From positions 2,153,181 through 2,217,180 of the forward strand of contig OX439035.1 in the NCBI GenBank assembly GCA_949317995.1: a DNA stretch of 64,000 bases, in the 5' to 3' direction. Both the position numbers and the translations under genes were made by a program. Origin of the DNA: Acholoe squamosa. Its lineage: Eukaryota > Annelida > Polychaeta > Phyllodocida > Polynoidae. The notes under the pieces were generated by a model. It made no database searches. It saw only the letters and a program-made list of their open reading frames with translations, and was not told where the DNA came from. The number at the start of each line of letters is the position of its first letter. Within the stretch, counting starts at the first letter, position 1. Positions 3,301-60,800 of the stretch are shown here, one piece after another.

Positions 3301-6300
3301 AGTTAGTTTAATACAGCAATGAAGTACCGTAAAACACTGGTCATAAGTCAGATTTTTCTTCTAATTTTGACTAAAACCAGCTTCTAAATTTCTCCCAAAG
3401 TCTACCCCCGGCTTATGAGTGGGTGTTTATTACTATAGAATAAGAGAATATAATGTAGCAATGTAAATTGCTGATAACTCGAAAAGTGAAAAGCTTTTTT
3501 TTTTCTGTTTGGATGAGTGAAATAATTGACCCTGTACTGTTGAGCTATGAATGTGAATATGAAATAAAACACAACATCATTGCTTTTGACTAAAATCATT
3601 CATTGGAGTCTTTTTCTTTATTTGCTCAACAGAGCAGGAGATAAATATTGCAATCAATAAATTAGAATGTGGGATGGGGCTGCAGGCACCGCTGGAGTAA
3701 GCCAGGGCGGAGGGGGTTCTGATGTAAGACAAACGCTACTCGCCTGTGATTGGCTCCCATGAGTTATGCACTCATCCTGTTGCATCAGCACTTCCTCACC
3801 CAGGTTATTGGCACCACCAATCCACTATTCGTATAACTCCCGTCAAAACTGCACTATTCGCACCACATTGCCAAAAAAGGCGGGAAAGTTGATACATGGA
3901 TCAACATCATATACCTTTACCATTTGAGGCAAAAAGTGTCTTATGGCTGCCAAACAATTGACTCTGTAGAATATAGACAATTACTCAAAACTTACAAAAG
4001 TTCTGAAATACCTTTTCCTGCAAGACCCCTCCTTTAAGATCTCCTCCTTTAATGGCACTACACATTCATTAAGTAATTCTGCCTCTTATATATAAAATTT
4101 CCATCTTTTTTTAAACTTATTCGCACCACCAAAATGACTGAAAATGAGGGGACCCTAGTTCTTTTCGAGTTAAAAATGGCTAAAATTTGACCCCAAAATC
4201 GGCTCATAATATTTCTTCAAAGTCTACCCCCGGCTTATAACTGAGGTCGGCTTATGACCGAGGTTTTACGGTACTGAGTAATGAGTCTTCTCACAACCAC
4301 TTCACTGGAGCATCATGCCGATCCTCAGGGAGTGTATTGACCCCCGTAGGGTGGCATGATGCATGAATTTGTGAGTAACTCACCAGGGCTGTACTCATGC
4401 ATCATGACGACTAAGGGGTATGATACATTAATGCATCAGCGGTCGTCATAACATATAATATGGTACCTATGTCTCTGCTTCTCCTACGGTACAGGCGCGG
4501 TGTGTCACTGACTAGTTATGTTATATACACAAAAGGGTACCTACGTCTCTGTTTGTCCTACAGTACAGGTGCGGTGTGTCACTGACTAGTTATGTTATAT
4601 ACACAATAGGGTACCTACGTCTCTGTTTGTCCTACGGTACAGGTGCGGTGTGTCACTGACTAGTTATGTTATATACACAATAGGGTACCTACGTCTCTGT
4701 TTGTCCTACAGTACAGGCGCGGTGTGTCACTGACTAGTTATGTTATATACACAATATGGTACCTACGTCTCTGTTTGTCCTACAGTACAGGTGCGGTGTG
4801 TCAGTGACTAGTCATGTTATATACACAATAAGGTACCTACGTCTCTGTTTGTCCTACGGTACAGGCGCGGTGTTTCACTGACTAGTTATGTTATATACAC
4901 AATATGGTACCTATGTCTGTTTGTCCTACGGTACAGTCGCGGTGTGTCACTGACTAGTTATGTTATATACACAATAGGGTACTTACGTCTCTGTTTGTCC
5001 TACAGTACAGGTGCGGTGTGTCAGTGACTAGTTATGTTATATACACAATATGGTACCTACGTCTCTGTTTGTCCTACAGTACAGGTGCGGTGTGTCACTG
5101 ACTAGTTATGTTATATACACAATAGGGTACCTACGTCTCTGTTTGTCCTACGGTACAGGCGCGGTGTGTCACTGACTAGTTATGTTATATACACAATAGG
5201 GTACCTACGTCTCTGTTTGTCCTAGGTACAGGTGCGGTGTGTCACTGACCATATAGTTATGTTATATACACAATAGGGTACTTACGTCTCTGTTTGTCCT
5301 ACGGTACAGTCGCGGTGTGTCACTGACTAGTTATGTTATATACACAATATGGTACCTACGTCTGTTTGTCCTACGGTACAGTCGCGGTGTGTCACTGACT
5401 AGTTATGTTATATACACAATCGGGTACCTACGTCTCTGTTTGTCCTAGGTACAGGTGCGGTGTGTCACTGACTAGTTATGTTATATACACAATATGGTAC
5501 CTACGTCTCTGTTTGTTCTACTGTACAGGCGTGGTCTGTCACTGACCATATAGTTATGTTATAGACACAATAGGGTACTTACGTCTCTGTTTGTCCTACG
5601 GTACAGTCGCGGTGTGTCACTGACTAGTTATGTTATATACACAATATGGTACCTATGTCTCTGCTTCTCCTACGGTACAGGCGCGGTGTGTCACTGACTA
5701 GTTATGTTATATACACAATAAGGTACCTACGTCTCTGTTTGTCCTACGGTACAGGCGCGGTGTGTCACTGACTAGTTATGTTATATACACAATATGGTAC
5801 CTACGTCTCTGTTTGTTCTACTGTACAGGCGTGGTCTGTCACTGACCATATAGTTATGTTATAGACACAATAGGGTACTTACGTCTCTGTTTGTCCTACG
5901 GTACAGGCGCAGTGTGTCACTGACTAGTTATGTTATATACACAATAGGGTACCTACGTCTCTGTTTGTCCTACAGTCCAGGCGCGGTGTGTCACTGACTA
6001 GTTATGTTATATACACAATAAGGTACCTACGTCTCTGTTTGTCCTACAGTACAGGCGCGGTGTGTCACTGACTAGTTATGTTATATACACAATATGGTAC
6101 CTACGTCTCTGTTTGTCCTACAGTCCAGGCGCGGTGTGTCACTGACTAGTTATGTTATATACACAATAAGGTACCTACGTCTCTGTTTGTCCTACGGTAC
6201 AGGCGCAGTGTGTCACTGACTAGTTATGTTATATACACAATAGGGTACCTACGTCTCTGTTTGTCCTACGGTACAGGCGCGGTGTGTCACTGACTAGTCA

Positions 6301-9300
6301 TGTTATATACACAATATGGTACCTACGTCTCTGTTTGTCCTACAGTCCAGGCGCGGTGTGTCACTGACTAGTTATGTTATATACACAATAAGGTACCTAC
6401 GTCTCTGTTTGTCCTACAGTACAGGCGCGGTGTGTCACTGACTAGTTATGTTATATACACAATATGGTACCTACGTCTCTGTTTGTCCTACAGTACAGGC
6501 GCGGTGTGTCACTGACCATATAGTTATGTTATATACACAATAGGGTACTTACGTCTCTGTTTGTCCTACGGTACAGTCGCGGTGTGTCACTGACTAGTTA
6601 TGTTATATACACAATATGGTACCTACGTCTCTGTTTGTCCTACAGTACAGGCGCGGTGTGTCACTGACTAGTCATGTTATATACACAATATGGTACCTAC
6701 GTCTCTGTTTGTCCTACAGTCCAGGCGCGGTGTGTCACTGACTAGTTATGTTATATACACAATAAGGTACCTACGTCTCTGTTTGTCCTACAGTACAGGC
6801 GCGGTGTGTCACTGACTAGTTATGTTATATACACAATATGGTACCTACGTCTCTGTTTGTCCTACAGTACAGGCGCGGTGTGTCACTGACCATATAGTTA
6901 TGTTATATACACAATAGGGTACTTACGTCTCTGTTTGTCCTACGGTACAGTCGCGGTGTGTCACTGACTAGTTATGTTATATACACAATATGGTACCTAC
7001 GTCTCTGTTTGTCCTACAGTACAGGCGCGGTGTGTCACTGACCATATAGTTATGTTATATACACAATAGGGTACTTACGTCTCTGTTTGTCCTACGGTAC
7101 AGTCGCGGTGTGTCACTGACTAGTTATGTTATATACACAATATGGTACCTATGTCTCTGCTTCTCCTACGGTACAGGTGCGGTGTGTCACTGACTAGTTA
7201 TGTTATATACACAATATGGTACCTACGTCTCTGTTTGTCCTACAGTACAGGCGCGGTGTGTCACTGACTAGTTATGTTATATACACAATAAGGTACCTAC
7301 GTCTCTGTTTGTCCTACGGTACAGGCGGTGTGTCACTGACTAGTTATGTTATATACACAATAGGGTACCTACGTCTCTGTTTGTCCTACAGTCCAGGCGC
7401 GGTGTGTCACTGACCATATAGTTATGTTATAGACACAATAAGGTACCTACGTCTCTGTCTCTGTTTGTCCTACGGTACAGTCGCGGTGTGTCACTGACCA
7501 TATAGTTATGTTATATACACAATAGGGTACCTACGTCTCTGTTTGTCCTACGGTACAGTCGCGGTGTGTCACTGACGAGTTTAAGGTGTACAGAACACTG
7601 CAGTGTGATATCCTCCTCCATGTAGTCGGTGAACGCACCCAGCGTCGACAACAACGTCCTGCACGCCTCGTCTAGACTCTCTGTAATGGTATTCAAACAC
7701 AGTATTGTAATTTTCAGTTTAAGGAACAATAACTGCTTTTAGTGGATTTTGTACATTTGCATACCCTCCCCACTGAGTAGTGAATTACAAGACAGTAACC
7801 TGTGAGTATGTTGGTATCTGTCAGTCCAAGTTGTGCCACATGCGGCTGTACCACACTCGTGTAGATCCCGGGTGCCTGCAATAAAAAAAACATAACTCAA
7901 TTAACACGTTTAAGAGCCTCCGCTACAGAAGTGCATCTTACCAGCATATTGCTTGTGAGTAGATTATAACCAAGGAATGTGAAAGGGACGAGTGTGCACG
8001 CGGCTTTATATATGGTGAATTATTTGTCAGCTGGCCTGAAGATTACATTTCCAAAATACATCACCTCACATTTAGATCCACTTTGACAGAATGTTCTACC
8101 CGTACCTTGGCGGCGAAGGTGCGGCAGTCGGCCATGAGCAGTACGACCTGTGAGCGTGTAACCAGTGGCTGCTGACTCAGCGTTTCTGTCGACTCAGGAT
8201 CAGGACTCGGCTGTTTGACGTGAGAATCCCCCTCCGCACCGTTTGTAGGACGCTTCAACTGGAACAATGTGTGTGAGGTGAGGATAGAATAGAATACCAG
8301 CCTGCTCTTGGGGAAGTCTGATTACTACAGGAGGCCAGGACAACTGGGGATGGTGGTCTCAAGCATGTTGGGTTGCGAGGTATGACCTTTTTTTTTGATC
8401 CTATTAAAATGGCACTTTGAAGCACCCCTGTTTAAGTCAAGCTGGAACACTGATTTTTCTAACAATTTATTTAATCTGTTTTTGGTGAAAATTGCAATTG
8501 TGCTGTTATCCTCGACCACCAATTAGGGAATATTGCACATGACTGGTGGTGGTTGTCCGCAATTTTTTTCTACGACTAACAATCGTTCCTTACCTGTGTG
8601 TTGTGTACTTCTTGTACCCACGTCGTGTAGCGTGAGATGAGCTGTAACGTCAGTTTCCAGAACCGATGACAGAGGGCGCCCAGATACACGTCCGGCTCCC
8701 AGCACCGGTGGATGCACGACCACAGCGTTTCAGTGGCCACAAGGTGGAACCCCGTGTTATCTATCGGGAAAGATTTATATTGTATTTAATTGGTATTTCA
8801 GGGCAATTTTTTAAAGTTAAGTTTTAATACAGTTGTAAAAAACTGACTGCTCACTACTAATAGCGCTCAATCAGGAGCGAACTGGTTCTCAAGCTTACCA
8901 TATTCATGCTGATATTAGCGACTTCTGGTTCTGATCTCGCACCAAAACTTGTTCCTGGCATGTCATAAAGTTTGGATGATAAGTACCCATATAAGTATCA
9001 CGAGATATTGCGAAATCAGAACTGTCAGTGCGTGCATAGAGAAAACAAGAAACCTCATTAGATATCCCATTCTCTACCCTTTTGACAATGTCATTTAGGC
9101 CACACCAAAATAATAAGTTGGTCTACAGATCCCCCTCTCCATATTTTCGGATATACAATTTTTTTCTTTCTTTGAAAAAAATCTTGTCTACGGATTTCGC
9201 TCGCTTCAGTTTCTACAAGTTTTCTCTTTGTGATGTTTGGCAAAATTAAAAAAAAAAAAAAAAAGTTTGTTCACTCGCCTCAAGTTCCCAGCAAGGAATC

Positions 9301-12300
9301 CGTTGGACGCAAAAAAATTTCTTAAAAAAAAAAATTCACTCGTTCGCACCATTTTTTCAAAACCGAAATCCGTAAACCAACTTATTTTTTTGGTTTGGCC
9401 TTACAGCCATAATTTTCCCCTCTATCATCGAGAGACGACTCACCCTTAGCATTACTGAAGGGCGTGGCTAGAACTGACTCCAGATTCCCAGCAATCTCCT
9501 GGAACCTGTAAAGTTAGCAAAAGTAGTCATTATAAACAAAGCCTTGTGAACAAAATTTGGACAAACTTTGTTGTGGCTGTTCACCATCAAAGTAGATTTA
9601 CTACGATCCACAAGTTTCAGCCTTTAAGGGCGGCTGATGCATTAATACATCAAGTTTCAGCCTTAAGGGCGGCTAATGCATTAATACATCAAGTTTCAGC
9701 CTTAAGGGCGGCTAATGTATTAATACATCAAGTTTCAGCCTTTAAGGGCGGCTGATGTATTAATACATCAGGTTTCAGCCTTTAAGGGCGGCTGATGCAT
9801 TAATACATCAAGTTTCAGCCTTTAAGGGCGGCTAATGCATTAATACATCAAGTTTCAGCCTTAAGGGCGGCTAATGCATTAATACATCAAGTTTCAGCCT
9901 TTAAGGGCGGCTAATGCATTAATACATCAAGTTTCAGCCTTAAGGGCGGCTAATGCATTAATACATCAAGTTTCAGCCTTTAAGGGCGGCTAATGCATTA
10001 ATACATCAAGTTTCAGCCTTAAGGGCGGCTAATGCATTAATACATCAAGTTTCAGCCTTTAAGGGCGGCTAATGTATTAATACATCAAGTTTCAGCCTTT
10101 AAGGGCGGCTGATGCATTAATACATCAAGTTTCAGCCTTTAAGGGCGGCTAATGCATTAATACATCAAGTTTCAGCTTTAAGGGCAGCTAATGTATTAAT
10201 ACATCAAGTTTCAGCTTTAAGGGCGGCTAATGCATTAATACATCAAGTTTCAGCCTTAAGGGCGGCTGACACATTAATACATCAAGTTTCAGCCTTAAGG
10301 GCGGCTAATGCATTAATACATCAAGTTTCAGCCTTTAAGGGCGGCTGATGCATTAATACATCAAGTTTCAGCCTTAAGGGCGGAAAATGCATTAATACAT
10401 CAAGTTTCAGCCTTAAGGGTGGCAAATGCATTAATACATCAAGTTTCAGCCTTAAGGGCGGCAAATGCATTAATACAACAAGTTTCAGCCTTAAGGGCGG
10501 CTAATGCATTAATACATCAAGTTTCAGCCTTAAGGGCGGCTAATGCATTAATACATCAAGTTTCAGCCTTTAAGGGCGGCTAATGTATTAATACATCATA
10601 TATATTGCTTGTCATGATGCATGAATGCAGCACTGGAATGCATGAATGCAGCACTGGAATGCATGAATGCAGCACTGGAATGCATGAATGCAGCACTGGA
10701 ATGCATGAATGCAGCACTGGAATGCAAGAATGCAGCACTGGAATGCATGAATGCAGCACTGGAATGCATGAATGCAGCACTGGAATGCATGAATGCAGCA
10801 CTGGAATGCATGAATGCAGCACTGGAATGCATGAATGCAGCACTGGAATGCATGAATGCAGCACTGGAAAGTAACTCACCAAGGCAGTCATGCTACATGC
10901 TGACCCTATGGGCTTAATATACTCCTAATTATTTGGAAGTAGACAAACACTTACTGACCTTATTTGGAAGTAGACAGACAGTAACTGACCTTATTTGGAA
11001 GTAGACGGGAAGGCTCCACTTGGACATGAATGTATGGTAACTGGGGTGAGCACGAAGTCGTTTGATGCTAGCCTGAGACCCACATCGATGCTCAAACATG
11101 CTGACAAACTCCAGACTGGTCGTGTATTTCTACAAACAAACAAAACCAGGTTGTACTATTTGACACATCAGATTAACATTAGTGCATGGAGACAACATAG
11201 GGATTAATGAGCACCCCGGATGTGTCGCCCGTCAGGGGCCGGCTCACTTGGGAGGGAGGGAGTGATAGATGTGTAACGCCATTTTAACAGCTGATGTTAT
11301 ATTCATGGCGAGAAATACATTACAGAATTTCACAGTGGGCTATGGAAGGCCGGGTTTACTTCATGGTCTCTACCTCTATGTATACCAAGTACCATACAGA
11401 TCCAGAGGCAGGTGGGAATGTCAGACAACAGGAACTGGGTACGGTGGTAACACTTTTGATATGAAGTCAAGAGACCCAGGTTTGATTCCCAGAGTTCCTT
11501 GGCATTTCTGCCTACCTCTACACATCTGAAAATGACGCCTTGTGATATGGTCTTCTCATTTAAGATATTAAAGGTTTCTTGAGAAGATTACCTCATGGAA
11601 AACATTTGGGTTGCCGGGTGCGAATATGGACGGTGTTTTGGCCTCGATGTTGAGCACGACCTCAGGCCAGACAGCATTGACAATGAAGTCATAGCCACGT
11701 ACAACCTCTGTACCCCTGAAACATATAGAAATAATATGTTGAATCTTGAAACTCTCTGATATAAATTTGTACATGAATACATTTTCACCATCTACAAAAA
11801 AGTGTTCTCATTATGTCGTCTACATTAAGAGTACAGTGGTAAGAGGAAAAGGTAGCGCAGCTAGCAAGAAGGCCCATCCACTTTGTCACTTCGTGCTCCT
11901 ACAGCTAAGAGCAGACATCATTTCACTATGTGGGGCCAACCTGCCCGTAATAGTCTCATCGCATTGTGCATCGAGGACCCATATGATGCAGAGATCTTAA
12001 GAAGGCTTTTCAATTAAAAAAGGGGCTTTTTTTAAATTGGATTCTCTGCATAGATTATTTGTTTGTTTTGTTTTACGTCTGGGGGCCATCGAGGAACTCG
12101 GACATTCTATATCGGACATGAAGTCCTTTCTTTTCTCTCAGGACAGGTATTTATATGCTGCTTGCCCGACACAGCAGTGACCACATCTATGGATGACCGA
12201 ATCTATGAGATGAATGACCGCATCTATGAGGGGTGAGTGGGGAACACTGCTACCGGGGCTTCATTCCCCTACTCTTTTCGAAGGATAGCAAGTGTTCTTT

Positions 12301-15300
12301 TATTTGCCTGGTCTCATAGGCAGGGCCAGACAAACCATGGCCTTTGATCACTCAGACGTGGTTCACTAAGGGGGAATCCCATGGCAAAAGACAAGCATGT
12401 AGACCCGGGCCCTCACATATGGACACCAGCTGCCAACATGCTCACCCCAAGCCACAAGAAACCCAGAGTTTGTCACCTTTTACGAATCTGGTATGCCCAC
12501 TGGTAGAATAGAAGGAGAATTCCTCCTTCGTGGACTGCCAATGAAGTTATTCTGCTCCATTATGCCCTCACATGAAGGTCCACACTTGACAGGAGGTATA
12601 GAGGAATCCACTAAGAGTGGCATCTATAAAATCACATATAAGCGATTTGGGACTGAATGCAGCACAATTATTTCTTTTTAAAAGAGGAGTACTGACACAT
12701 CAGGAAAATTTTCAGCCCCAAAAATTTAGTTTACAATTCTTGAAAGTGGTGAAAAATAGCATAATTGTTTCTTTCTTCGCTGGCAGGCAGATTACAAGGA
12801 AAATGTTCAATTAAGCTAAGATGACTTACTTAACTAGCGCGTCCCGTAACTTGTTGCAGTGTTTGGGGATAAAGTCGAGTACCTTCTGGTACATGCCGTT
12901 CAGTCCCTGCGGGTTCTGTGAGATGAACTGCTCCGTAATGACCTGTAAATCCATGTTAAGTATGAATATCACACAAAGTGGACAGCATCAGAATTTCACA
13001 GTGCCTATCCTTAATTAAGCCGTTTTATGCTAATCCAAAACCATTATAGCCTATTTTTTTCAAACAGATTATCTCCATTAAAGGGTAATTCTCTGAATTA
13101 TCATATATCTTAAAACCTTACCGTCTCCATATATGGCCGTACAACCTGTTGCCTAAACAGGTTTTCGGCATCCCGCATCTTGTCTATAGTGGCATATGTA
13201 CGCAGACACTGACGTAGCATGTCTGTGTTATTGGACTCCAGACCCTCCGTGAACTGTGTCTCCAAGCTGATCTGTAGCGTGTTGGTGATGTTGGTGATCC
13301 GCTATAAGGGATATGTTGGAATTAATGACAGTTTTATCTTAATGACCGTGTTGGTGAACGCTGTAAGGGATATGTCGGAATTAATGACAGTTTTATCTTA
13401 ATAACCGTGTTGGTGAACGCTGTAAAGGATAGGTCGGAAGTAATGACAGATTAGTCTTAATAATCATGTTGGTGAACGCTGTAAGGGATATGTCGGAATT
13501 AATGACAGTTTTATATTAATGACCGTATTGGTGAACGCTGTAAGGGATATGTCGGAATTAATGACAGTTTTATCATTTATCTTTTATCCGTATTGGTGAA
13601 CGCTGTAAGGGATATGTCGGAATTAATGACAGTTTTATCTTAATAACCGTGTTGGTGAACGCTGTAAGGGATATGTCGGAATTAATGACTGTTTTATCTT
13701 AATAACCGTGTTGGTGAACGCTGTAAGGGATATGTCAGAATTAATGACAGTTTTATCTTAATAACCGTGTCGGGGAACGCTGTGAAGGATAGGTCGGAAG
13801 TAATGACAGATTAGTCTTAATATTCATGTTGGTGAACGCTGTAAGGGATATGTCGGAATTAATGACAGTTTTATATTAATGACCGTATTGGTGAACGCTG
13901 TAAGGGATATGTCGGAATTAATGACAGTTTTATCATTTATCTTTTATCCGTATTGGTGAACGCTGTAAGGGATATGTCGGAATTAATGACAGTTTTATCT
14001 TAATAACCGTGTTGGTGAACGCTGTAAGGGATATGTAGGAATTAATGACTGTTTTATCTTAATAACCGTGTTGGTGAACGCTGTAAGGGATATGTCGGAA
14101 TTAATGACAGTTTTATCTTAATAACCGTGTTGGTGAACGCTGTAAAGGATAGGTCGGAAGTAATGACAGATTAGTCTTAATAATCATGTTGGTGATACGC
14201 TGTAAAGGATAGGTCGGAAACATAGAGCACTGCGACTTGAGTCGTCCGAAACTCTAAAAGAGTGCCACAACGTAGTAGTCTCCACAAGCAGAACTTCGGC
14301 AAAACCTCCACTCCGTACCTACGTTCTGGGCCCTAGAATGAGGTCTGGCCGGTTAGTTGGTGACCGGCTGCAACTCCCATACTTGTACTACAAGGTACGA
14401 CGGGACAGACCTGTGTCAGTCTAGCTGGCCGGGAGACTAACAACGTAGTACATATGTGGAACTATGGCGGGAGTTCATGACACCCTGGCGGGAGTCTATG
14501 ACACCCTGACTTGACACCTCCATAGGAATAACATTGCTGAGCCCAAAGCGTCGCTGTGACATTTTTTGGTCATAGTTATTTTTCTAATTTTAATATCTCT
14601 TAAATAACTTGATTCCCCCTTATAATCTTTAGTCCTGCATGTGCTACCGAATGTAATCTATCATATACACGTTGTTCTGAGACCAAAATGAACCTTAAAA
14701 GAATTTTAATGGATTTTTAAAAATAAGAAGATGGTCGGTTTTGGTCCCAAACGCCCCGTCGTAAAGTGGCTTGACCCACCCCTGAATCCCTAAAACTCTT
14801 AATCAATGACAGATTAGTCTTAATAATCGTGTTGGTGAAACGCTGTAAGGGATAGCGTAGAATTAACAACTTAACAAATATGATTTTAATATGCTGGAAG
14901 AGATATGTCAATCAGCCCAAACAAGGTTGAAGCTTATAGATATTCAACACTAACAAACCACTAATTTTGAGGCCCTAGCTGCAGCCTATGACTCTAAGAC
15001 ACACTCAGACTGAGCTTACACAAGGGTGCGTCTTATACACAGAAGTTTACAGTACTCAACATAAAACCATGATGATACAACTTACCGGTTTGATGTGTTC
15101 CACGAGAGGCGCCCCGCGACTCTTGTTAACGTAAAACTGTAACTTGTTAAATTCTGTCGCTACTCGCTCTATCAGCTGTCCTGTCAGGTCCTCTCTGTCA
15201 ACATCAATAAAACACATCACACAAACCATTAACCCTTTAAGAGCCGCTAATGCAGGAGTGCATCATGCTCATTGGTGCATCATGACGACCGTGCGGGAGC

Positions 15301-18300
15301 GCATCTATCCCATAGGGTCAGCATGATGCATGAATGCAGCCCTGGTGAGTGACTCTACAGGGCGGCATTCATGCATCATGACGACCAAGGGGCATGATGC
15401 ATTAATGCAGCCTGACACTGGGAAGGTTCTTCATATGCTACCAATATGGCTACTAATGGCTATTATAGCGTCAGTACTAGAGCATCAATTTCCATCCCTT
15501 AAGTGCGGTCTATAGCTTCCTCTCTAACTCAGGGTGTGTCTTATACGGGAGGGTTTATGGTGATAACATAAGGCGTGTACATACCCGTAGTGCGTTCCAT
15601 GCTCGTCGTCTGCGCGCTTAATGCCCAACAACTTCTCCATCCTGTCCACAGACTCCGTGATGGCGATAAGACGCTGCAGACATGCCTACAATATATACAC
15701 GTGAACACTCTGACACAGTCTATTTTTCCCCTCAGAGGCTACTAATGGTCTGCTTTGCAAGCCGCAAAAAAACAAAATGTAGCCCAAGGCCCCACGATTA
15801 TAACCAGACATTCGGTGTGGCAGTCTGGCAATTTCCGCCGGCCCAGCAGCAATTTTGCCAGCAAAAGCCGATGTCTGACGATTTTAGCATTGACTGATAC
15901 CACAGCGATAAGGCAACTTAGACATGCCTACAATATCACATAGGTATGCCATAAAACGTGGAAACTCTAAACTACTAGACATACATTTTATATGTTTTCC
16001 AAGTGCATGGTGCGCGAATTACACCAAATATGGTAAACCTCTGGGTGTGTATTAGGGCCATAAGGTGAGCATCCTACATGAATGTAGTAACTCTGGGTGT
16101 GTATTAGGGCCATAAGGTGAGCATCCTACATGAATGTAGTAACTCTGGGTGTGTATTAAGGCAATAAGGTGAGCATCCTACATGAATGTAGTAACTCTGT
16201 GTGTGTATTAAGGCCATAAGGTGAGCATCCTACATGAATGTAGTCAGTAACTCTGGGTGTGTATTAGGGCCATAAGGTGACCATCCTACATGAATGTAGT
16301 AACTCTGGGTGTGTATTAAGGCAATAAGGTGAGCATCCTACATGAATGTAGTAACTCTGTGTGTGTATTAAGGCCATAAGGTGAGCATCCTACATGAATG
16401 TAGTCAGTAACTCTGGGTGTGTATTAAGGCCATAAGGTGAGCATCCTACATGAATGTAGTGAGTAACTCTGGGTGTGTATTAAGGCCATAAGGTGAGCAT
16501 CCTACATGAATGTAGTCAGTAACTCTGGGTGTGTATTAAGGTCATAAGGTGAGCATCCTACATGAATGTGGTGAGTAACTCTGGGTGTGTATTAAGGCCA
16601 TAAGGTGAGCATCCTACATGAATGTAGTGAGTAACTCTGGGTGTGTATTAAGGCCATAAGGTGACCATCCTACATGAATGTAGTGAGTAACTCTGGGTGT
16701 GTATTAGGGCCATAAGGTGAGCATCCTACATGAATGTGGTAACTCTGGGTGTGTATTAAGGCCATAAGGTGAGCATCCTACATGAATGTAGTAACTCTGG
16801 GTGTGTATTAAGGCCATGAGGTGAGCATCCTACATGAATGTAGTAACTCTGTGTGTGTATTAAGGCCATAAGGTGAGCATCCTACATGAATGTAGTAACT
16901 CTGGGTGTGTATTAGGGCCATAAGGTAACCATCCTACATGAATGTGGTGAGTAACTCTGGGTGTGTATTAGGGGCATAAGGTGAGCATCCTACATGAATG
17001 TGGTGAGTAACTCTGTGTGTATTAAGGCCATAAGGCGAGCATCCTACATGAATGTAGTGAGTAACTCTGGGTGTGTATTAAGGCCATAAGGTGAGCATCC
17101 TACATGAATGTAGTAACTCTGGGTGTGTATTAGGGGCATAAGGTGAGCATCCTACATGAATGTAGTAACTCTGGGTGTGTATTAAGGCCATAAGGCGAGC
17201 ATCCTACATGAATGTGGTAAGTAACTCTGTGTGTGTATTAAGGCCATAAGGTGACCATCCTACATGAATGTAGTAACTCTGGGTGTGTATTAAGGCCATA
17301 AGGTGACCATCCTACATGAATGTAGTAACTCTGGGTGTGTATTAAGGCCATAAGGCGAGCATCCTACATGAATGTAGTGAGTAACTCTGTGTGTATTAGG
17401 GCCATAAGGTGAGCATCCTACATGAATGTAGTAACTCTGGGTGTGTATTAAGGCCATAAGGTGACCATCCTACATGAATGTGGTCAGTAACTCTGGGTGT
17501 GTATTAAGGCCATAAGGTGACCATCCTACATGAATGTGGTAACTCTAGGTGTGTATTAAGGACATAAGGTGACCATCCTACATGAATGTAGTAACTCTGG
17601 GTGTGTATTAAGGCCATAAGGTTAGCATCCTACATGAATGTAGTAACTCTGGGTGTGTATTAAGGTCATAAGCTGAGCATCCTACATGAATGTAGTGAGT
17701 AACTCTGTGTGTATTAAGGTCATAAGGTGAGCATCCTACATGAATGTAGAGAGTAACTCTGGGTGTGTATTAAGGCCATAAGGTGAGCATCCTACATGAA
17801 TGTAGTAACTCTGGGTGTGTATTAAGGTCATAAGGTGACCATCCTACATGAATGTAGTAACTCTGGGTGTGTATTAGGGCCATAAGGTGAACATCCTACA
17901 TGAATGTAGTAACTCTGGGTGTGTATTAAGGCCATAAGGTGAGCATCCTACATGAATGTAGTGAGTAACTCTGGGTGTGTATTAAGGCCATAAGGTGAGC
18001 ATCCTACATGAATGTAGTAACTCTGGGTGTGTATTAAGGCCATAAGGTGAGCATCCTACATGAATGTGGTGAGTAACTCTGGGTGTGTATTAGGGCCATA
18101 AGGTGAGCATCCTACATGAATGTAGTGAGTAACTCTGGGTGTGTATTAAGGCCATAAGGTGAGCATCCTACATGAATGTAGTCAGTAACTCTGGGTGTGT
18201 ATTAAGGCCATAAGGCGAGCATCCTACATGAATGTAGTGAGTAACTCTGGGTGTGTATTAGGGCCATAAGGTGAGCATCCTACATGAATGTAGGGAGTAA

Positions 18301-44632: not shown

Positions 44633-44687
44633 CTAGGAAACTTTCTCAAATACTAGCAGTGGCCCCATATTGCAAATCATCTAAAAG

Positions 44688-44872
44688 GAGTGAGTGAGTG
44701 AGTAATAGATGTTTTACGCCATTTCGACATCTAAGGTCATATTCATGGCGAGAACGACATTACACAATTTCACAGAGGAATGTGTCAGTGCCTGCGCATA
44801 TGTGCACCACACACATCCTGAGGGGATAGGAAAGAAGAGATATAGACCCTTTTAAGTGGGCTAGGGAAGCCC
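44688..44872. mobile_element. SINE-like repeat, full copy 1, 12-bp duplication
   Basis: 185 bp flanked by perfect ATCATCTAAAAG duplications (44676-44687 and 44873-44884). Starts with GTGAGTGAGTAATAG and ends GGGCTAGGGAAGCCC. No clear tRNA-type A or B box seen. Confidence 0.82.
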
Positions 44873-45454
44873 ATCATCTAAAAGACCAGGGGCTGTGAAC
44901 TGTATATACTCATATATAAAATCTGTCTACAACATTATAAATGAAAACCTGGTGCTGACATAAGTGTACCTGTACATTAGTCAATAAAGCCATCTTGAAT
45001 CTTGAATTGAATCTATGGAAAATTGTCACACCTAGCCTGACCCCCCCCCCCTCCAGCGTGACGTCATTTGTGGAGAACCATTTATCATAAATTTTATGGA
45101 TGAGGAATCACTGACATTCAATTGATTTATCTTCTGTTTGTCAAGTTTATAATTATAGCATGTCCTGTGCCGGTGACTGACTCAGTGACTGTGTGCACTG
45201 GTATTTGGATCCTAGAACTTTTAATAACAGAAGTGTTCTTTGGTCCACGTGATGAGGCCCATGGCCTGGACTCATGTATTTGTACACTGTTTACACGCAG
45301 CCTTGGTTTTCCATCTGACAACGCTGACCTATATAGAAAACTACCTGCGTCATCAGCAGCCACCGCCCCCTCCCACCCGGCAGCAGAAACTCATGAATAT
45401 TCATCCCCAAGTTCCAACCCAGTTCAAGAAAGCAATGTCAGCAGCGCCGTTCCC

Positions 45455-45871
45455 TCTAATAGCCAATAGAAGCGCTATAAATACAACTCCGGCGAAGTTA
45501 TAACCATTTGCAAAATCTGACAGACCTTGCTATCGGAATGCCTCGGTAAACTTGCACAAAAATGAAGTAAATGTGGCCAGAACGTCGAGACGTTCAGCTT
45601 TCACTGGAGGCCGCCATTTTGGCTGTGAGTGCGGCTGCGCGGCGCGGTGTGTGCTGGGAAACGGCCCACGTGACCCGGCGTCAACCAATCAGCGCCCAGA
45701 CCCCCAGCACAGGTTGTTGTTTCATCGATGGTGGAGTGGACAGGACCGTCCAAGTCCCACCTTTCAATGGGTGTTTCCACGTATTTCTCATAAAATCAAG
45801 TCGACATTTTTTCACCAAATAACCCCCGCGTGCTGTGGAAGCTGCCGTGATTCGATAGAGAAGATTTGATC
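45455..45871 (+). promoter_or_regulatory. Putative ARID4 promoter and 5' UTR
   Basis: A CCAAT box (45463-45467) sits just before TATAAATA (45476-45483). Further down, a GC-rich, CpG-containing part holds a YY1-like GCCGCCATTTTGG (45610-45622), an E-box CACGTGAC (45667-45674) and a second CCAAT (45685-45692). The start ATG is at 45872. Motif positions are seen; use as the ARID4 promoter, and whether the TATA or the YY1/E-box cluster sets the start, is inference. Confidence 0.5.
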
Positions 45872-45874
45872 ATG
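45872..45874 (+). CDS. ARID4: ARID4 coding exon 1 (start codon only)
   Basis: The ATG is immediately followed by a gtaaag donor, so the coding part of exon 1 is the initiator methionine alone. Joined to exon 2 it gives [15 protein letters not shown], equivalent to the human M-KAADEPAYLTVGTDV. No other in-frame ATG precedes the Tudor-like region. Confidence 0.8.
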
Positions 45875-48800: not shown

Positions 48801-51800
48801 TGCTTTTGATAAGCATGGTTCTGATTCTTTGTAGTCTTTTAAGTAAAATACAACAAAATTAAGTTTCCAACTTGACTTATAAGAAATGGCATAAACTTTT
48901 GTTGTTGTCAGAACCTACAGTTTCGTTGCTATAGCATCTTCGTCAGGGTTCTTGATAGGCTTGTAACTTTGTGAAGCTGAATGGCAGGGCCCAAGGATAA
49001 TAATGATAGTGCTAAATTGAGATTAAGTGCCAAGAAGATAGCCTGAATATGTCACTTTACTCATTGTCGTTATTTTACAGCCGGGTGCCAAGGTGGAGGT
49101 AAAACACCCAGAGAGCGGTGTCTACGTGGAGGCCACGTTAAACAAGCTGACTGACTGCAGCATGTACACTGTCGGTATGCATGGCACGGTTATACTGTTT
49201 TTGTTCCTTTGTCTTAATTCTAGCCATTGTAGCGCTAGCCAGATTACACAAAAGAATTGTCCATGTTCCTTTGATGTGATATTAATCAATTTAGCGCTGG
49301 TCTGTCTACTCAAAGTGACACACAAACTGTTACTGATCACCTTCCCTTTTCGTAATATCAACCAAAGCAATGTTGGTCAGTAAACTCGCGAGAACTGCCA
49401 AGGATCAACCCCATAGTGTTTGCATGCTACATGAATATAGGCATTGCGTGTTGCACCATACTAGCCAAGAGCAATAGTGCGTTTTAGCACTATGGAGTAA
49501 AACAGTTATTAGTAAAATCAGAACACACACAAAAAAGAGAGAATTATTTCCAATGTGTAAATACCATCTAAAAAAGTATAGTTTAGTGTGGTTCAATACA
49601 AAATAAAAGTGAACTGTCAAAGTAAATGAGCTGTTGGTTTGTTTTCAGTTTTTGACGACAGTGATGAGAACACGTTACGGAGGACACAATTATGTCTGAA
49701 GGGAGAGAAACATTTTGTGAAGAGCGAGGTAAGTTCTACATACACAGGGAAGCTCTTTGTAAATGTTGTCTATGTTTAGAAAAAACAGTCACACATGGTT
49801 GCAAATTTGTACGCATCAAATGCCTTGAGGCACCCTGGTGATCTTTCATCAGGGCACAAAATAATGTCTCAAAAACGATTGTGTTTCATTATCAACTTTC
49901 ATTAGAGTTTATAAACAAGGCAAGCAGCATTAGAGTATTTCACTATTCTTATTTCAGACATTAGACCAGTTGCCGTTGACCCACCCTGAACATTTCGGCA
50001 CACCGGTAATGAAAGGTTATAAAGGAACCAAGCGCCGTCGGACCCCGACCGGCGGTGGGGTGTCTGACTCAGACTCAGAGAGCGAGGCATCAGAATGCAG
50101 CTCTCCCAGAAAACGGATTTACACAGGTCGGTTACGGGACCTGGTGGGTCGGGTTCTGTGTATGGAGATCGACGACCGTAAAAAGACAACGTGGGTCCCT
50201 GTACTCACCATTATACCCAGCGCTGCTGATATGGAGCTAAAGACGCGGGATCATCTCCTAGTCAAGTCCTTTAAGGACAGTCGTATGTAAGTGTGTTAGA
50301 TGTATGTATGTATTACATGTACCGGGGAAGTAGATATCTTCTGTCATACCCAGGGTTCTCCACAGAATGTAAAATCACACCGTAGAAAAAATCCTGCAGC
50401 AAGCTTGCATAAAATTTCATTTGGTAACACCCTAAGCCTTATGGTAGGCTAAATTTGGTTTTGTAGTCTCATTCATGACAGTGTGGGATTACAGATGGGA
50501 ATTTAACAAAGGAATTGAAAGTATTTTCATAAATATGGCCATAACTTCTGTTCTAATTGGCCGATTTGCAAAATTCAAAAACCTACATGAAGCTAAAATG
50601 ACATCGGCCGTGATTCTGAGATGAAATCACACTGGCGACAGTAAAAATCACACCGTCGGCCCACCGGCGTCATTACAGTGTGAGGAGAACCCTGATACCT
50701 TAGGTGTATAAAAAATGGCTAATATTGGACATTTTGTGTTGCTTTGATTGTATTGTAAATTTGTAAATCTTTAACCTTACAGTCACACAGTGGCACGTAA
50801 AGACACCAAGGAGTTTGTCCGAGACATGGCGATAAAGAATGAGGACAAGGCGTTAAAACCTGCCATGGAGAAGGCGCTGGCGTACTACGACAGCCGCGAC
50901 TTGCCGAGTAACTGGGACCGGGAGGAGCTGCTCGGTGTGGACAGTGAGGATGAAGAGGAGAGCGACGTGAGTGTCTCTATGTTTATCTCTTTTTCTGATT
51001 GTGCTTAACAAGAATGAGTTTTTTTCCAAAATCTTGGATATTGGAAGGTGAAGTGGGTCATTCTCGTGACAGATCCATTGAGAAAGTATTTTAATATTAG
51101 TGGGGGGGGGGCGAGATTTATACCTTAAACGGTATATATTTAATCTCAAATACCACCTAGTGGGGGTGGTTAAAAAACCATCTTAGATATACCCTCAAAA
51201 TCAAGTCCCGTGCATGACTTTAAGTTCTGTCACTTACTCAGTTTTTACTTGACCCTGTTTCATCCTTTTCCTGTTGATGTAGACGTCTGACGATGTACCA
51301 ACGGAAGAAAAGGATCACTTCGTAGCGCAGCTTTACAAGTTCATGGACGACCGAGGTGAGTAAAGAGACATCCTATAACAGTATAATGGCTGGTGATGCA
51401 TTAGTGTAGTATGCCCATTGGTTCCATGAATGCAGCCCTGGTGAGTCAAGGAGGGTCGGCACGATTCTCGACCATGTAGTATCATGCTGACCCTATGTGG
51501 TTGGTGCACTCCCAGGGGGTCTGTATGATGCCCCAATGAAGTACTGGTAAGCAAACAGTGCCACGTGCTCTAACATTTCGCTTTTATATTCCCCCCGTAC
51601 AGACACACCGATCAACAAGCCTCCGTCCATCGGCACCCACGACCTGAATCTGTACAGGCTTTTCATGCTGGTCCGCAACCTGGGCGGATATAACAAGGTA
51701 TCGATACACTATCTTTCACACTCTACATCCCCTATTGAGACTGGGTAGTTTTCTGATTTGTAAAACTCTGGTCCTGAACTTGTTTGGCTATAACCAGGGA

Positions 51801-54800
51801 TGTAAGTTTTCAGAATTTTGTCTGATTTCAGAATTTTTTTTAACCAGACGTGTCTAATAGATTTAACCAAATTCCCTTTCTTGCATCAAAGTTTTGTTAA
51901 TGTTTTACAACAAATGCAGGATTTCTAAATGTGTTGTCAGAACTTTTCAGACAGACTGACTTAGATCCCTGTATAACAGTAACGACACTATTTGTCTCAC
52001 TTGACGTACCCTGTAAGAGCAATTCAATCTGTATAAACAGTGGTTCGATATAACAGTAACGACACTATTTGTCTCACTTGACGTACCCTGTAAGAGCAAT
52101 TCAATCTGTATAAACAGTGGTTCGATATAACAGTAACGACACTATTTGTCTCACTTGACGTACCCTGTAAGAGCAATGTCAATCTGTATAAACAGTGGTT
52201 TGATATAACAAAGTAACGACACTATTTGTCTCACTTGACGTACCCTGTAAGAGCAATGTCAATCTGTATAAACAGTGGTTTGATATAACAAAGTAACGAC
52301 ACTATTTGTCTCACTTGACGTACCCTGTAAGAGCAATGTCAATCTGTATAAACAGTGGTTTGATATAACAAAGTAACGACACTATTTGTCTCACTTGACG
52401 TACCCTGTAAGAGCAATTCAATCTGTATAAACAGTGGTTCGATATAACAGTAACGACACTATTTGTCTCACTTGACGTACCCTGTAAGAGCAATTCAATC
52501 TGTATAAACAGTGGTTCAATATAACAAAGTAAGGACACTATTTGTCTCACTTGACGTACCCTGTAAGACCAATGTCAATCTGTATAAACAGTGGTTCGAT
52601 ATAACAAAGTAACGACACTATTTGTCTCACTTGACGTACCCTGTAAGACCAATGTCAATCTGTATAAACAGTGGTTCGATATAACAAAGTAACGACACTA
52701 TTTGTCTCACTTGACGTACCCTGTAAGAGCAATGTCAATCTGTATAAACAGTGGTTCGATATAACAGTAACGACACTATTTGTCTCACTTGACGTACCCT
52801 GTAAGAGCAATTCAATCTGTATAAACAGTGGTTCGATATAACAAAGTAACGACACTATTTGTCTCACTTGACGTACCCTGTAAGACCAATGTCAATCTGT
52901 ATAAACAGTGGTTCGATATAACAAAGTAACGACACTATTTGTCTCACTTGACGTACCCTGTAAGACCAATGTCAATCTGTATAAACAGTGGTTCGATATA
53001 ACAAAGTAACGACACTATTTGTCTCACTTGACGTACCCTGTAAGACCAATGTCAATCTGTATAAACAGTGGTTCGATATAACAAAGTAACGACACTATTT
53101 GTCTCACTTGACGTACCCTGTAAGAGCAATGTCAATCTGTCTAAACAGTGGTTCGATATAACAAAGTAACGACACTATTTGTCTCACTTGACGTACCCTG
53201 TAAGAGCAATTCAATCTGTATAAACAGTGGTTCGATATAACAAAGTAACGACACTATTTGTCTCACTTGACGTACCCTGTAAGAGCAATGTCAATCTGTA
53301 TAAACAGTGGTTCAATATAACAAAGTAAGGACACTATTTGTCTCACTTGACGTACCCTGTAAGAGCAATTCAATCTGTATAAACAGTGGTTCGATATAAC
53401 AAAGTAACGACACTATTTGTCTCACTTGACGTACCCTGTAAGAGCAATGTCAATCTGTCTAAACAGTGGTTCGATATAACAGTAACGACACTATTTGTCT
53501 CACTTGACGTACCCTGTAAGAGCAATGTCAATCTGTATAAACAGTGGTTCAATATAACAAAGTAAGGACACTATTTGTCTCACTTGACGTACCCTGTAAG
53601 AGCAATGTCAATCTGTATAAACAGTGGTTCAGTATAACAAAGTAAGGACACTATTTGTCTCACTTGACGTACCCTGTAAGAGCAATTCAATCTGTATAAA
53701 CAGTGGTTCAATATAACAAAGTAAGGACACTATTTGTCTCACTTGACGTACCCTGTAAGAGCAATGTCAATCTGTATAAACAGTGGTTCAATATAACAAA
53801 GTAAGGACACTATTTGTCTCACTTGACGTACCCTGTAAGAGCAATTCAATCTGTATAAACAGTGGTTCGATATAACAAAGTAACGACACTATTTGTCTCA
53901 CTTGACGTACCCTGTAAGAGCAATGTCAATCTGTCTAAACAGTGGTTCGATATAACAGTAACGACACTATTTGTCTCACTTGACGTACCCTGTAAGAGCA
54001 ATGTCAATCTGTATAAACAGTGGTTCAATATAACAAAGTAAGGACACTATTTGTCTCACTTGACGTACCCTGTAAGAGCAATGTCAATCTGTATAAACAG
54101 TGGTTCAGTATAACAAAGTAACGACACTATTTGTCTCACTTGACATACCCTGTAAGAGAAATGTCAATCTGTATAAACAGTGGTTCGATATAACAGTAAC
54201 GACACTATTTGTCTCACTTGACGTACCCTGTAAGAGCAATGTCAATCTGTATAAACAGTGGTTTGATATAACAGTAACGACACTATTTGTCTCACTTGAC
54301 GTACCCTGTAAGAGCAATGTCAATCTGTCTAAACAGTGGTTCGATATAACAAAGTAACGACACTATTTGTCTCACTTGACGTACCCTGTAAGAGCAATGT
54401 CAATCTGTATAAACAGTGGTTCGATATAACAGTAACGACACTATTTGTCTCACTTGACGTACCCTGTAAGAGCAATGTCAATCTGTATAAACAGTGGTTC
54501 GATATAACAAAGTAACGACACTATTTGTCTCACTTGACGTACCCTGTAAGAGCAATGTCAATCTGTATAAACAGTGGTTCGATATAACAGTAACGACACT
54601 ATTTGTCTCACTTGACGTACCCTGTAAGAGCAATGTCAATCTGTCTAAACAGTGGTTCGATATAACAAAGTAACGACACTATTTGTCTCACTTGACGTAC
54701 CCTGTAAGAGCAATGTCAATTTGTCTAAACAGTGGTTCGATATAACAAAGTAACGACACTATTTGTCTCACTTGACGTACCCTGTAAGAGCAATGTCAAT

Positions 54801-57800
54801 CTGTATAAACAGTGGTTCGATATAACAGTAACGACACTATTTGTCTCACTTGACGTACCCTGTAAGAGCAATGTCAATCTGTCTAAACAGTGGTTCGATA
54901 TAACAAAGTAACGACACTATTTGTCTCACTTGACGAACCCTGTAAGAGCAATGTCAATTTGTCTAAACAGTGGTTCGATATAACAAAGTAACGACACTAT
55001 TTGTCTCACTTGACGTACCCTGTAAGAGCAATTCAATCTGTATAAACAGTGGTTCGATATAACAAAGTAACGACACTATTTGTCTCACTTGACGTACCCT
55101 GTAAGAGCAATGTCAATCTGTATAAACAGTGGTTCAATATAACAAAGTAAGGACACTATTTGTCTCACTTGACGTACCCTGTAAGAGCAATGTCAATCTG
55201 TATAAACAGTGGTTCGATATAACAAAGTAACGACACTATTTGTCTCACTTGACGTACCCTGTAAGAGCAATGTCAATCTGTATAAACAGTGGTTCAATAT
55301 AACAAAGTAAGGACACTATTTGTCTCACTTGACGTACTCTGTAAGAGCAATGTCAATCTGTCTAAACAGTGGTTCGATATAACAAAGTAACGACACTATT
55401 TGTCTCACTTGACGTACCCTGTAAGAGCAATGTCAATCTGTCTAAACAGTGGTTCGATATAACAAAGTAACGACACCATTTGTCTCACTTGACGTACCCT
55501 GTAAGAGCAATGTCAATCTGTATAAACAGTGGTTCGATATAACAAAGTAACGACACTATTTGTCTCACTTGACATACCCTCAAAGAGCAATGTCAATCTG
55601 TCTAAACAGTGGTTCGATATAACAAAGTAACAACACACTCAGCCTTTGTATACTTGTCATGAGCCCAGTCTTTTTGTAATTCTTTTTGTCAAAATGTGCT
55701 AACATTTTTCCAGTCTACTCCCCAGTTCAGGGTTTTAATACATACCATAAATCAAGAAATTAGGCCCCATCAGGGTAATGGATATCCTCATAAACTGACC
55801 CAAGTTCATGACTGAGATGTGTTTATGAGCAGCTTTCCACTCTACTTAGCATGCTTGTATAAATCTAGCTGAAACATTTGCTACCTGTCCTCACCCCATG
55901 GCATATGTGTGCATTCTGTGCCCAACGAAACCACGTCCAAAGTCTCACGCATGTCACAAGTACCAGAAATGTAAGGCAGGCAGCTCTTACACAAAAAAGC
56001 TTGAGATGAGGCCAGGACACATGTCCAAATTGGTTGCTATAGGTTGAATGCATTGCTAAACCTACTACCCTTGAAATGTATGTCTGAGCTGTGGTCATGT
56101 TTTAAGATTCCTTGACTGAGGGCTTATGTAAATTGTTGCTTGTTGCAGGTTACAAACTTAATGAAATGGAAAATGGTTTACTCAAAGATGAATCTACCGG
56201 CCTCGACCAATGCGTACAACCAGATAAAGACCGCTTACAAAAAGTAAGTCGAAATAATCACAGAGATGTAAGTTGTCAGGGATTTCCCTGAAAATAAGGA
56301 ATTCAAAAATGTTGAAATGTAGTCTGAATAGGGATATCCAGGGTCTTCAGGGACAGAATTTATTCACAGCCTTCTTTCCCTGGTCATTTCCTTCACACAG
56401 ACCCAGTCCTCAGTTGTATTTTCAACTAGGGACTCCACTAAGCCCCATTGATGTAAGCAGAGGGACTCACTGGTCCAGGGGAGACTCTGGGCAGGGAATC
56501 TCAGGGGCAGACCCTCCCAGAGAGAAAAGAAGGGAATGCTGCTCTCTGATTGGTCTAAAATCATCAGTCAGCAACATAGTACAATTGTTTAACACCAGGG
56601 GGTGCCATGATGTTGTGCTGGTCAGAGTCTGCCCTGAACACTCTGCTTATATACCAGGGGTGCTGCCAACTCTCCCAGTGTCGCGATAACAGCTTTTCAG
56701 GGATTTTCCCAGTACCTGACTTACATCTCTGTAATCATGCTTTAGATGAGGCTGATTCTTAAAATGGAGAACTTGTCTGACCAGTCGATTCTGCTTAAGT
56801 TTTTTAGTCACTTGTGATGTGTTCGTATACAATGTACTTTAGACACCCTTGGACCTTTAAAAGACTCCTCAGGTCTACAAATCTGTAGTCAACATAATGA
56901 ATGATTTAGCCCTGTCCCCTTAGGCCATGTTGAAAGAAAAAAAATCAAATCAGAATAAAACGGCCTTACTCACCAGGGCTACTTTGACCTGTGTTGATAA
57001 AAAAGGTTTTTGGCAACCCTGCTTCAGGTGTCATTGTTAAGGTAGTGGCTAGCCACTACCTTAATTACATCTATCTACCATCCAAAGTAGCCACAGAAAA
57101 TAATCCATGTATAGGCTTAGTCTGTAACTCACCCATGTTAAATCAATACACAACATAATGTAGGAGAGTGAATTGGTGGGGATCAGCCTTGGTCAATTCT
57201 GCTTTGTTCTATAGTAAGCAGAGGCTTTGTACTAAACTCATCCCATGTTCCAATATGGTGTGTTTCAGCTTGGAGACTTGGTGTCTTGACATATGAGTCA
57301 AGCTCCTAGTATAGATTATATCCAAAACTGCCATAGTATTTCAATATGCTATGTAATTGCTTGGAGATAGGCACAGAGCTCCTGTCACTCCCTTTGACAG
57401 CTTGGTCAAACCACCACACCTGTATGTACCCCCCACACACCTTCCCTAATGCCTATTATGGCCACAATCACTCCCTGGGCAGGCCTACACCTAATATGAA
57501 TTAGCTGTAGGTACTAGCACCCCACTATCAATATCCAAGGTCTAGCCATTTACAAAATCAGTGAAGAGCCTGGTGTAATTGTTTTCTCTCTCCCAGGGCA
57601 GATGATATGATGCATGAGTGCAACCCTACACATATAGCATATACATGTAGTACTACTAGTAGTGTAGCTCATCAATATTAGAGGGACACCACAAAATAAC
57701 CCTCTGCATGCAACATTATGTGTCATCAGTTAAACAATAAACCTTTATGTACATAGGCAGCCTGATGTTTCATTAATTAAACTAAGCACACCTTTACAGA

Positions 57801-60800
57801 CAATATGGTGTTTTATTAGTTATACGATACAATAACCCTTCATAGGCAACATGGTGGTTTATTTACCATGCCTTACCACAACCCTTTACAGGCAACATTA
57901 TATTCTATCGATTATACCATACAATAACCCTTTGTAAGCAACATGATTATAATTTGTAATTTATTGATTATAGAGATGTACATACAATAACCCTCTATAA
58001 GCAACATGATGTTTTATTAAACACACCATACAAATACCCTTTATGGGCAACATGATTGTTTATTAGATTCACCTTACAATTACCCTCTACAGGCAACATG
58101 ATGTTTTATTCCTTTTGTCATATCATAACCCCTTACAGGCAACATGGTCTTCTATTGGTTATACCATACAATAACCCTTCATATGCAACATGATGGTTTA
58201 TTAGATTCATCTTGTAATAACCATATAAGATTCCAGTGAGTGAGTAATAGATGTCTAATGCCATTTCAACAGCTAAGGTCATATTCATGGTGAGAACAAC
58301 ATTACACATTTTCACAGAGGGATGTGTCAGTGCCTGCACATATGTGCACCACACACATCCTGAGGGGATAGGAAAGATGAGAAGTAGACCCTTTTAAGTG
58401 GGCTAGGGAAGCCCGACCCCTACAGGAAACATGATGATTTATTGGTTATAACATACAATAACCCTTTAGAGGCAGCATGCTGTTTTTATCAGTTTCATAA
58501 TAAAATAACCCTCTACAGGCAACATGATGTTTTATCAATCACAGCACACAATAACACTCTGCATGCAACACTATGTATTGTCGGCCGTATTGTCAGTTAA
58601 ACAAACCTTTATATACAAAGACAGCCTGATGTTTCATTAATCAAACTAAACAAACCTTTACAGACAACATGGTGTTTTATTAGTTATACCATACAATAAC
58701 CCTTCATAGGCAACATTATATTCTATTGATTATACCATACAATTATCCTTTATAAACAACATGATGTTTTATTAAACACACCATAGAATAACCCCCTTTA
58801 TGGGCAACATGATGGTTTATAAGATTCATCTTAGAATGACCCTGTACAGGCAACATGATGTTTTATTCGTTTTGTCATATCATAACCCCTTACAGGCAAC
58901 ATGGTCTTCTATTGGTTATACCATACAATAACCCTTCATATGCAACATGATGGTTTATTAGATTCATCTTAAAATGACCCTGTACAGGCAACATGATGTT
59001 TTATTTGTTATGCAATATTATAAACCCTTACAGGCAACATGGTAGTCTATTGATTATACCATACAATAGCCCATTACAGGCAACATGATGGGTCATTGGT
59101 TATACCCTACAATGACCCTGTACAGGCAGCATGGTGTTTTATTAGCTTTGCCATTCAATGATCTTTTACAGGCAATATGATGATTTATTGGACCTCAATA
59201 GACAGTATAATGTAGGAAAGTGAGCTGGGGGGGGGGGGCTGAGCTATGGGAAGCTCTGATTTGTTTTATAGAAAACAAAAGCTTTGTATATCACCTCCCT
59301 CATTTTCCAATATGGTGTATAAATACTTGGAGTCAGTGATTACTAAATATACTTTGTCACTATAACATCACTTAGTATGATAATTTTGTATAGACTATAG
59401 TTCTTTGAACATAGAAGCCACTATAACATAGGGCTTTGCCCTAACCTTAAACATTTTGTGAAGGAGTAAAGTGTTTATACAAAGTAGCAATGTGTTCCTA
59501 CTTAAGGTACCTGTTATAAGTATTTCTAATGCTGTGTTCCTACTTAAGGTACCTGTTGTCAGTATTTCTAATGCTGTGTTCCTACTTCAGGTACCTGTTA
59601 TAAGTATTTCTAATGCTGTGTTCCTACTTAAGGTACCTGTTATAAGTATTTCTAATGCTGTGTTCCTACTTAAGGTACCTGTTGTCAGTATTTCTAATGC
59701 TGTGTTCCTACTTCAGGTACCTGTTATAAGTATTTCTAATGCTGTGTTCCTACTTAAGGTACCTGTTGTCAGTATTTCTAATGCTGTGTTCCTACTTCAG
59801 GCACCTGTTATCAGTATTTCTTATGCTGTGTTCCTACTTCAGGTACCTGTTATCAGTATTTCTAATGCTGTGTTCCTACTTAAGGTACCTGTTATCAGTA
59901 TTTCTAATCCTGTGTTCCTACTTAAGGTACCTGTTATCAGTATTTCTAATGCTGTGTTCCTACTTAAGGTACCTGTTATAAGTATTTCTAATCCTGTGTT
60001 CCTACTTTAGGTACCTCCATGCATACGAGGACTTTTACCGTAAGTTGGGCAGCACCATGGGTAACCGTCCGGGGCGTACACGACACTCGTCCGGCCGCAG
60101 TCTGCTGTCATTCAGAGAGCGAGAGGGAGGCCAGCCCAAGTCTCCACGTGCCGAGAAGAAAAAGGAAGATAAGATAGAGGAAGAGAAAGAAGAGGAGAAA
60201 ACTGGGGACGACAAGAAGGAAGATGACAAGGTAGTGTAGAAAGTAACACTTAGAGTAAAAGTATTTTTCACCTTAAACTTTAAGGGCCACTGATACAGGA
60301 GAGCATCGTGCCCATCGGTCGGCATGATGCACCAATGAAGTGCTGCCAAGACTGCTCGTCAGCACTTCATTGGAGCATCATGCCAACCCTCCGAGAGTTT
60401 GTGTATCAACCCCATAGGGTCTGCCTTATGCATGAATATAGCCCGTGTCAGAACTGCACTCCTGCATCATTACGACCAATTGGTATGATACATTAATACA
60501 TCATAAGGCACATTTGTAGTTATGAACCCTGGTGTGTCTACTTACCATTGCTACATTCTAGATTGACAAACATAATTGCATTTACTTCAGACCAAAGTAA
60601 AGGAGCCAGAGAAGAAGGAATCAGACGTTAAGACGAAGAAGGCAGAAGAACGTAAATCTGCAGTGAAAGAAGAGTTGGATGTTGACGTCGACAGTCCAAG
60701 AAAAAGACGCAGCCGAAATACACCAGGTGAGAAGAAACCTGAGGATAAGGGAGAGGAGAAGGTGAACAAACGAGTAACACGGGAGGATGCTGCGAAGATG

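Follow-up and report, generated by a model that had tools for sequence, protein, structure and literature searches.

Minisatellites whose repeat unit spans an exon-intron border, known as mirages, have been described in amphioxus, in the Adh3, PGBD5 and troponin C genes and in the globin genes BflGb6 and BflGb9; they involve 5' as well as 3' borders and retain the splice signals in many of their copies (PMC3087553, PMC3902484). In this study, we describe border-spanning repeats in the introns of two unrelated genes, COG2 and ARID4, of the polynoid annelid Acholoe squamosa. They lie in a window (the whole stretch of DNA analysed) of 64,000 nucleotides, positions 2,153,181 to 2,217,180 of contig OX439035.1. 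The original prediction, made from the letters of this window, had pointed to amphioxus mirages near exon borders, and the two papers bear this out.

The annelid arrays resemble the amphioxus mirages in that their units hold exon bases, a splice site and intron bases (at seven of 55 borders, five of them by blind detection), in that donors and acceptors are both affected in more than one gene (COG2 and ARID4, with one more acceptor in an RGS gene), and in that the splice signals are retained in many copies. They differ in their host, a lophotrochozoan rather than a cephalochordate, which is a feature of the known cases and not of the structure, and in size, the clearest array having about 42 copies whereas the amphioxus globin cases have up to six (PMC3087553). 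Splicing and length instability have been studied in amphioxus, while the present arrays are known from the sequence of one assembly. Judged on their structure, they are mirage-type minisatellites in a new animal branch.

Other described systems are related to a lesser degree. In human genes lying in segmental duplications, internal tandem repeats include minisatellite expansion at an exon-intron boundary; those cases concern recent paralogues with longer exons or putative new introns, whereas the present repeats are intronic and occur in two unrelated genes (PMC2812944). Earthworm metallothionein genes carry intronic arrays of minisatellite length, as well as duplications of the fourth exon that are absent from the transcript; the arrays are intronic and the host lophotrochozoan, as here, and units spanning a splice border are not stated for the earthworm in the accessible part of that report (PMC12783039). 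Tandem genomic duplication can also give rise to an intron by providing a gene with a second splice site (PMC4974935); in the present cases, by contrast, it is the borders of already present introns that are crossed. Our searches of the open-access literature did not bring up any lophotrochozoan with arrays described at its splice borders.

Border copies in the introns of COG2 and ARID4

Around each border, 30 bases of exon and 12 of intron were taken as a probe and aligned to the remainder of the adjacent intron, with the reverse complement of that intron as control. Among the 55 borders scanned in the two genes, from 28 introns, seven recur as a copy on the sense strand of the intron they adjoin (seven different introns), as compared to none of 55 on the antisense strand. 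The sense scores of the seven are 79, 50, 48, 37, 35, 31 and 27; the remaining 48 borders do not exceed 19, and 21 is the highest value among the 55 antisense controls. These are exactly the seven borders that the original prediction had named. Three are donors (COG2 exons 10 and 15 and ARID4 51697) and four are acceptors (COG2 exons 5 and 7 and ARID4 47914 and 60011), neither kind being preferred. They comprise four clear arrays or repeats, two two-copy duplications and one decayed resemblance of an array to a donor:

4457..7581, minus strand: 74-bp array of about 42 copies, covering the donor of COG2 exon 15 plus the 47 exon bases that precede it; score 79, antisense 17
10929..11006, minus strand: 31-bp repeat of 2.5 copies, covering the donor of COG2 exon 10 plus the end of that exon; score 48, antisense 17
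13278..14219, minus strand: 59-bp array of about 15.5 copies, covering the acceptor of COG2 exon 7 plus the first bases of that exon; score 37, antisense 16
15905..15936, minus strand: single relic of the COG2 exon 5 border, about 240 bp upstream of it, with the acceptor and some 23 bases of the exon; score 35
47797..47850, plus strand: duplicate of the 53 bases that open the ARID4 exon starting at 47914, 116-117 bp upstream; score 50, antisense 15
51978..55636, plus strand: 80-bp array of about 46 copies, resembling ARID4 donor 51697 in decayed form; border score 27, antisense 13
59491..60016, plus strand: 42-bp array of about 12.5 copies, covering ARID4 acceptor 60011 plus the 6 bases that open the exon; score 31, antisense 17

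Copies of the arrays concerned match their consensus at 88-96% in Tandem Repeats Finder, which lists 55 rows in the window. The copies end 6-53 bases within the exon rather than at the junction, although the ends of decayed copies may have become indistinct.

The decayed cases also exceed random probes. In the case of COG2 exon 5, the score of the relic was reached by none of 1000 random probes (best 27). The relic lies within an open frame (15745-15936, minus strand) that resembles the exon 5 protein at its start (ACLSCLIAVVSV versus ACLQRLIAITES), and because of this resemblance it may be a decayed exon duplication. An array or duplication had been predicted at this acceptor; the copy exists, but as a single relic outside the 56-bp array of about 146 copies (16039-23929) that occupies most of COG2 intron 4. 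Founding of this long array on the exon 5 border was considered and rejected, the border score there being only 14. In the case of donor 51697, the array lies 281 bp away and the match covers 11 exon and 36 intron bases with a score of 42, a value not attained by any of 1000 random probes (best 30). The predicted match of an array to the donor of ARID4 exon 9 therefore exists in decayed form only, the array starting at that distance from the donor; the borders assigned to ARID4 exons 9 and 11 are confirmed under other exon numbers, these being exons 8 and 10 when 47914 starts exon 2.

Arrays without a border are also present. The unit of array 9611-10598 contains no border, its self-match stopping 15 nt short of an acceptor, and there is none in the unit of a 53-bp array of about 24 copies (about 60943-62223), which starts 29 nt past ARID4 donor 60914.

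Splice signals inside the arrays

The splice dinucleotides are largely intact in the aligned copies. GT is retained in 37 of 41 copies for COG2 exon 15 (real site included) and in 46 of 46 for ARID4 51697, and AG in 13 of 13 for both COG2 exon 7 and ARID4 60011, the real site being included in both. When the sites were scored with a small weight matrix built from the 27 donors and 28 acceptors of COG2 and ARID4, the decoys equal to or above the real site amounted to 36 of 39 for COG2 exon 15, 24 of 35 for ARID4 51697, 14 of 14 for COG2 exon 7 and 4 of 12 for ARID4 60011. Because so many decoys equal or outscore the real site, position would have to decide between them.

The 42-bp unit at 59491-60016 is a multiple of three, and 59730-59978, read in the phase of the ARID4 exon that begins at 60011, is free of stop codons, a stop following thereafter; use of a decoy acceptor could therefore add in-frame repeats. 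Among 36 copies of the COG2 exon 15 array, distance from the exon copy has no bearing on identity to it, which favours homogenisation.

Origin and placement of the duplications

For the analysis of placement, each array was collapsed to one unit and units were placed at random within the COG2 and ARID4 gene bodies; the border pattern had been picked out before this testing. By blind detection, 5 of 26 events span a border, against 2.7 expected (P 0.12). Other thresholds gave 5 of 35 (P 0.13) and 5 of 20 (P 0.10), with an expectation of 2.6-2.8 over the three thresholds, and restriction to Tandem Repeats Finder scores of at least 200 gave 3 of 13 against 1.2 (P 0.11). The two decayed cases would bring the border-spanning total to 7, but they came from looking at borders alone. 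The copies themselves are real and beyond chance; the number of border-spanning events lies within about two-fold of random placement, and a roughly two-fold tendency towards borders is possible. The process starting duplications at splice junctions that the original prediction had put forward is thus not borne out by blind detection within the window.

With moderate confidence, we favour an origin in ordinary tandem duplication across a border, with tolerance of the product and its later amplification, targeting of junctions not being required. A short tandem duplication, probably arising from an error of repair or replication, would happen to cross an exon-intron border and leave the two copies of the splice site that are seen in the sequence. 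The original site beside the exon body would be unchanged and still used, and the extra copy would be intronic and tolerated; such a duplication would cost little, because the exon-side splice site is untouched. The intronic copies would then multiply and homogenise by unequal exchange or slippage, some of them to dozens, as the arrays of about 12-46 similar copies suggest. Some copies would finally decay to relics, a state observed at COG2 exon 5 and, with few changes, at ARID4 47914, and likely for the array at 51978. Selection that tolerates duplications at borders, the other proposal of the original prediction, would fit the data.

A sample of the same assembly, 29 stretches of 10 kb (290 kb), offers a comparison outside the window. 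One stretch (L005, 4353-4518) contains an exact two-copy tandem duplication of 83 bp, the unit of which covers an acceptor together with 9 bases of exon; homology flanking the breakpoint amounts to 1 bp. The Pfam RGS domain scores below the family cut-off in this gene, and its four exons match, in order, the domain of RGS7. This duplication looks like a founding step before amplification. An 88-bp duplication in another stretch (L028, 944-1124) spans a strong acceptor and ends 5 nt past it; it was not counted as a further border case, since its supposed exons have no Pfam match or homologue. In the first 21 stretches, comparison of 182 predicted coding-segment edges with their surroundings gave scores of at least 30 in 19 sense and 11 antisense cases, and among seven of these 19 sense edges inspected, the RGS case is the only border copy. 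Of 77 matches between these stretches and the window, the best 15 show 82-96% identity, which is what dispersed repeats common to both would give.

When arrays were scored for exons ab initio, 42 from the sample showed no excess (2 above the 95% null, against 2.1 expected), a negative result from a score that missed the RGS case; for the arrays of the window it gave 5 of 26 against 1.3 expected, a circular figure, the score having been trained on the window's own genes. The share of sequence in arrays scoring at least 200 is 32.8% for the window, as compared to 3.1% for the chromosome-1 sample and 0.8% for five other stretches. Because the window is so unusually rich in arrays, its rates are not to be carried over to the genome. 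Within the window, such arrays cover 41% of the COG2 span (208-34344), 38% of the ARID4 part (46901-64000) and 4% of the DNA between them (34345-46900).

A number of observations weigh against the origin that we favour. Border-spanning counts exceed the random expectation, about two-fold, at every threshold. On a hand-made list of 21 events, from which two arrays scoring above 100 were omitted and in which one joined array was split, 4 of 13 multi-copy arrays span a border against 1.2 expected (P 0.027), or 5 when the decayed ARID4 array is included (P 0.0045). Tolerance, moreover, is assumed: many decoys score as high as the real site, so that some could be used. These counts and P values, together with the two further arrays lying 15 and 29 nt from a border, would fit duplications that start preferentially at or near splice junctions, for instance at breaks in co-transcriptional structures, borders then being mutational hotspots. 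We regard this explanation as rather unlikely, given that blind detection is not significant (P 0.10-0.13), that the pattern was chosen after being seen, that the copies end at varied points within the exons, and that the exon score, which missed the RGS case, finds no excess at the sampled arrays. Slippage at AG-GT sequences, also suggested by the original prediction, is disfavoured because the copies end inside the exons; the RGS duplication, with its single base pair of flanking homology, points the same way.

The copies could alternatively derive from duplication of a whole exon, or from the gain of an intron through tandem duplication of DNA bearing splice signals; the resemblance of the open frame to the start of COG2 exon 5 would fit this. 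In human genes, new introns have been linked to tandem repeats at exon-intron boundaries (PMC2812944), and the same has been proposed for amphioxus globins (PMC3087553). Most units here, rather than a whole exon, hold 6-53 exon bases plus intron, and this origin is improbable. A splicing function of the arrays, for example through the recruitment of splicing factors or a delay in site choice, could be read from the retained dinucleotides, but homogenisation accounts for these equally well, array sizes range from 2 copies to dozens, and other arrays of the same introns lack a border; such a role is very improbable. Long arrays are always at risk of errors in genome assembly, of which no supporting sign was found here. 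The copies differ from each other and some cases are decayed, and the contigs are chromosome-sized (127 Mb), although copy numbers may still be inexact; assembly error is the least likely of these explanations.

Host genes and significance

The gene models follow homology and GT-AG rules; that of ARID4 is partial, beginning at exon 2 (start 47914) without exon 1, and the end of its last exon is uncertain:

208..34344, minus strand: COG2 gene, 18 GT-AG exons, joined open frame of 719 residues
34344-34267 and 303-208, minus strand: COG2 exons 1 and 18
15685-15585, 13301-13122, 11129-10990 and 7680-7535, minus strand: COG2 exons 5, 7, 10 and 15, beside the copied borders
46901..62856, plus strand: ARID4, partial gene, 11 modelled exons, joined open frame of 568 residues
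47914-48024, 49081-49174, 49649-49728, 49958-50286, 50783-50966 and 51283-51355, plus strand: first six ARID4 exons
51603-51697, 56149-56243, 60011-60230, 60591-60914 and 62757-about 62856, plus strand: last five ARID4 exons

Pfam domains COG2_N and COG2_C are found in the COG2 product, and ARID and RBB1NT in that of ARID4. The closest COG2 relatives found are at most 57% identical (Owenia, a chiton and bivalves), and three Branchiostoma species are 54-55% identical. In a COG2 tree of 26 rows, the window sequence falls inside a 16-row lophotrochozoan group (bootstrap 100; approximate likelihood ratio support, SH-aLRT, 99), a placement by one gene only. Grouping with Branchiostoma was rejected in this one-gene tree, at a cost of 61 log-likelihood units (approximately unbiased test, p-AU, 7.7e-5).

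Two further open frames lie in the window. That at 27768-28304 (plus strand), in COG2 intron 1 and on the strand opposite to the gene, has an integrase core domain (Pfam rve, E 4.6e-11), by which we identify it as a retroelement fragment. Between COG2 and ARID4, a frame of 266 codons at 39819-40616 (minus strand), without a Pfam match at E 0.01, is a possible third gene.

The arrays described here extend the amphioxus mirage pattern to a protostome lineage, and the pattern is therefore not a peculiarity of cephalochordates. A broader proposition would be that border-founded minisatellites are recurrent in amphioxus and lophotrochozoans, that they start near junctions above chance, and that the spliceosome, faced with dozens of equally strong decoys, relies on position alone to find the exon-side site; taken together, we consider this unlikely. 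Each array is also a natural test of splice-site choice, in which a single site is presumably chosen from a series of nearly identical donors or acceptors. Should arrays prove to be founded at splice sites throughout the genome, this would point to a mutational process linked to gene structure and would supply raw material for new introns.

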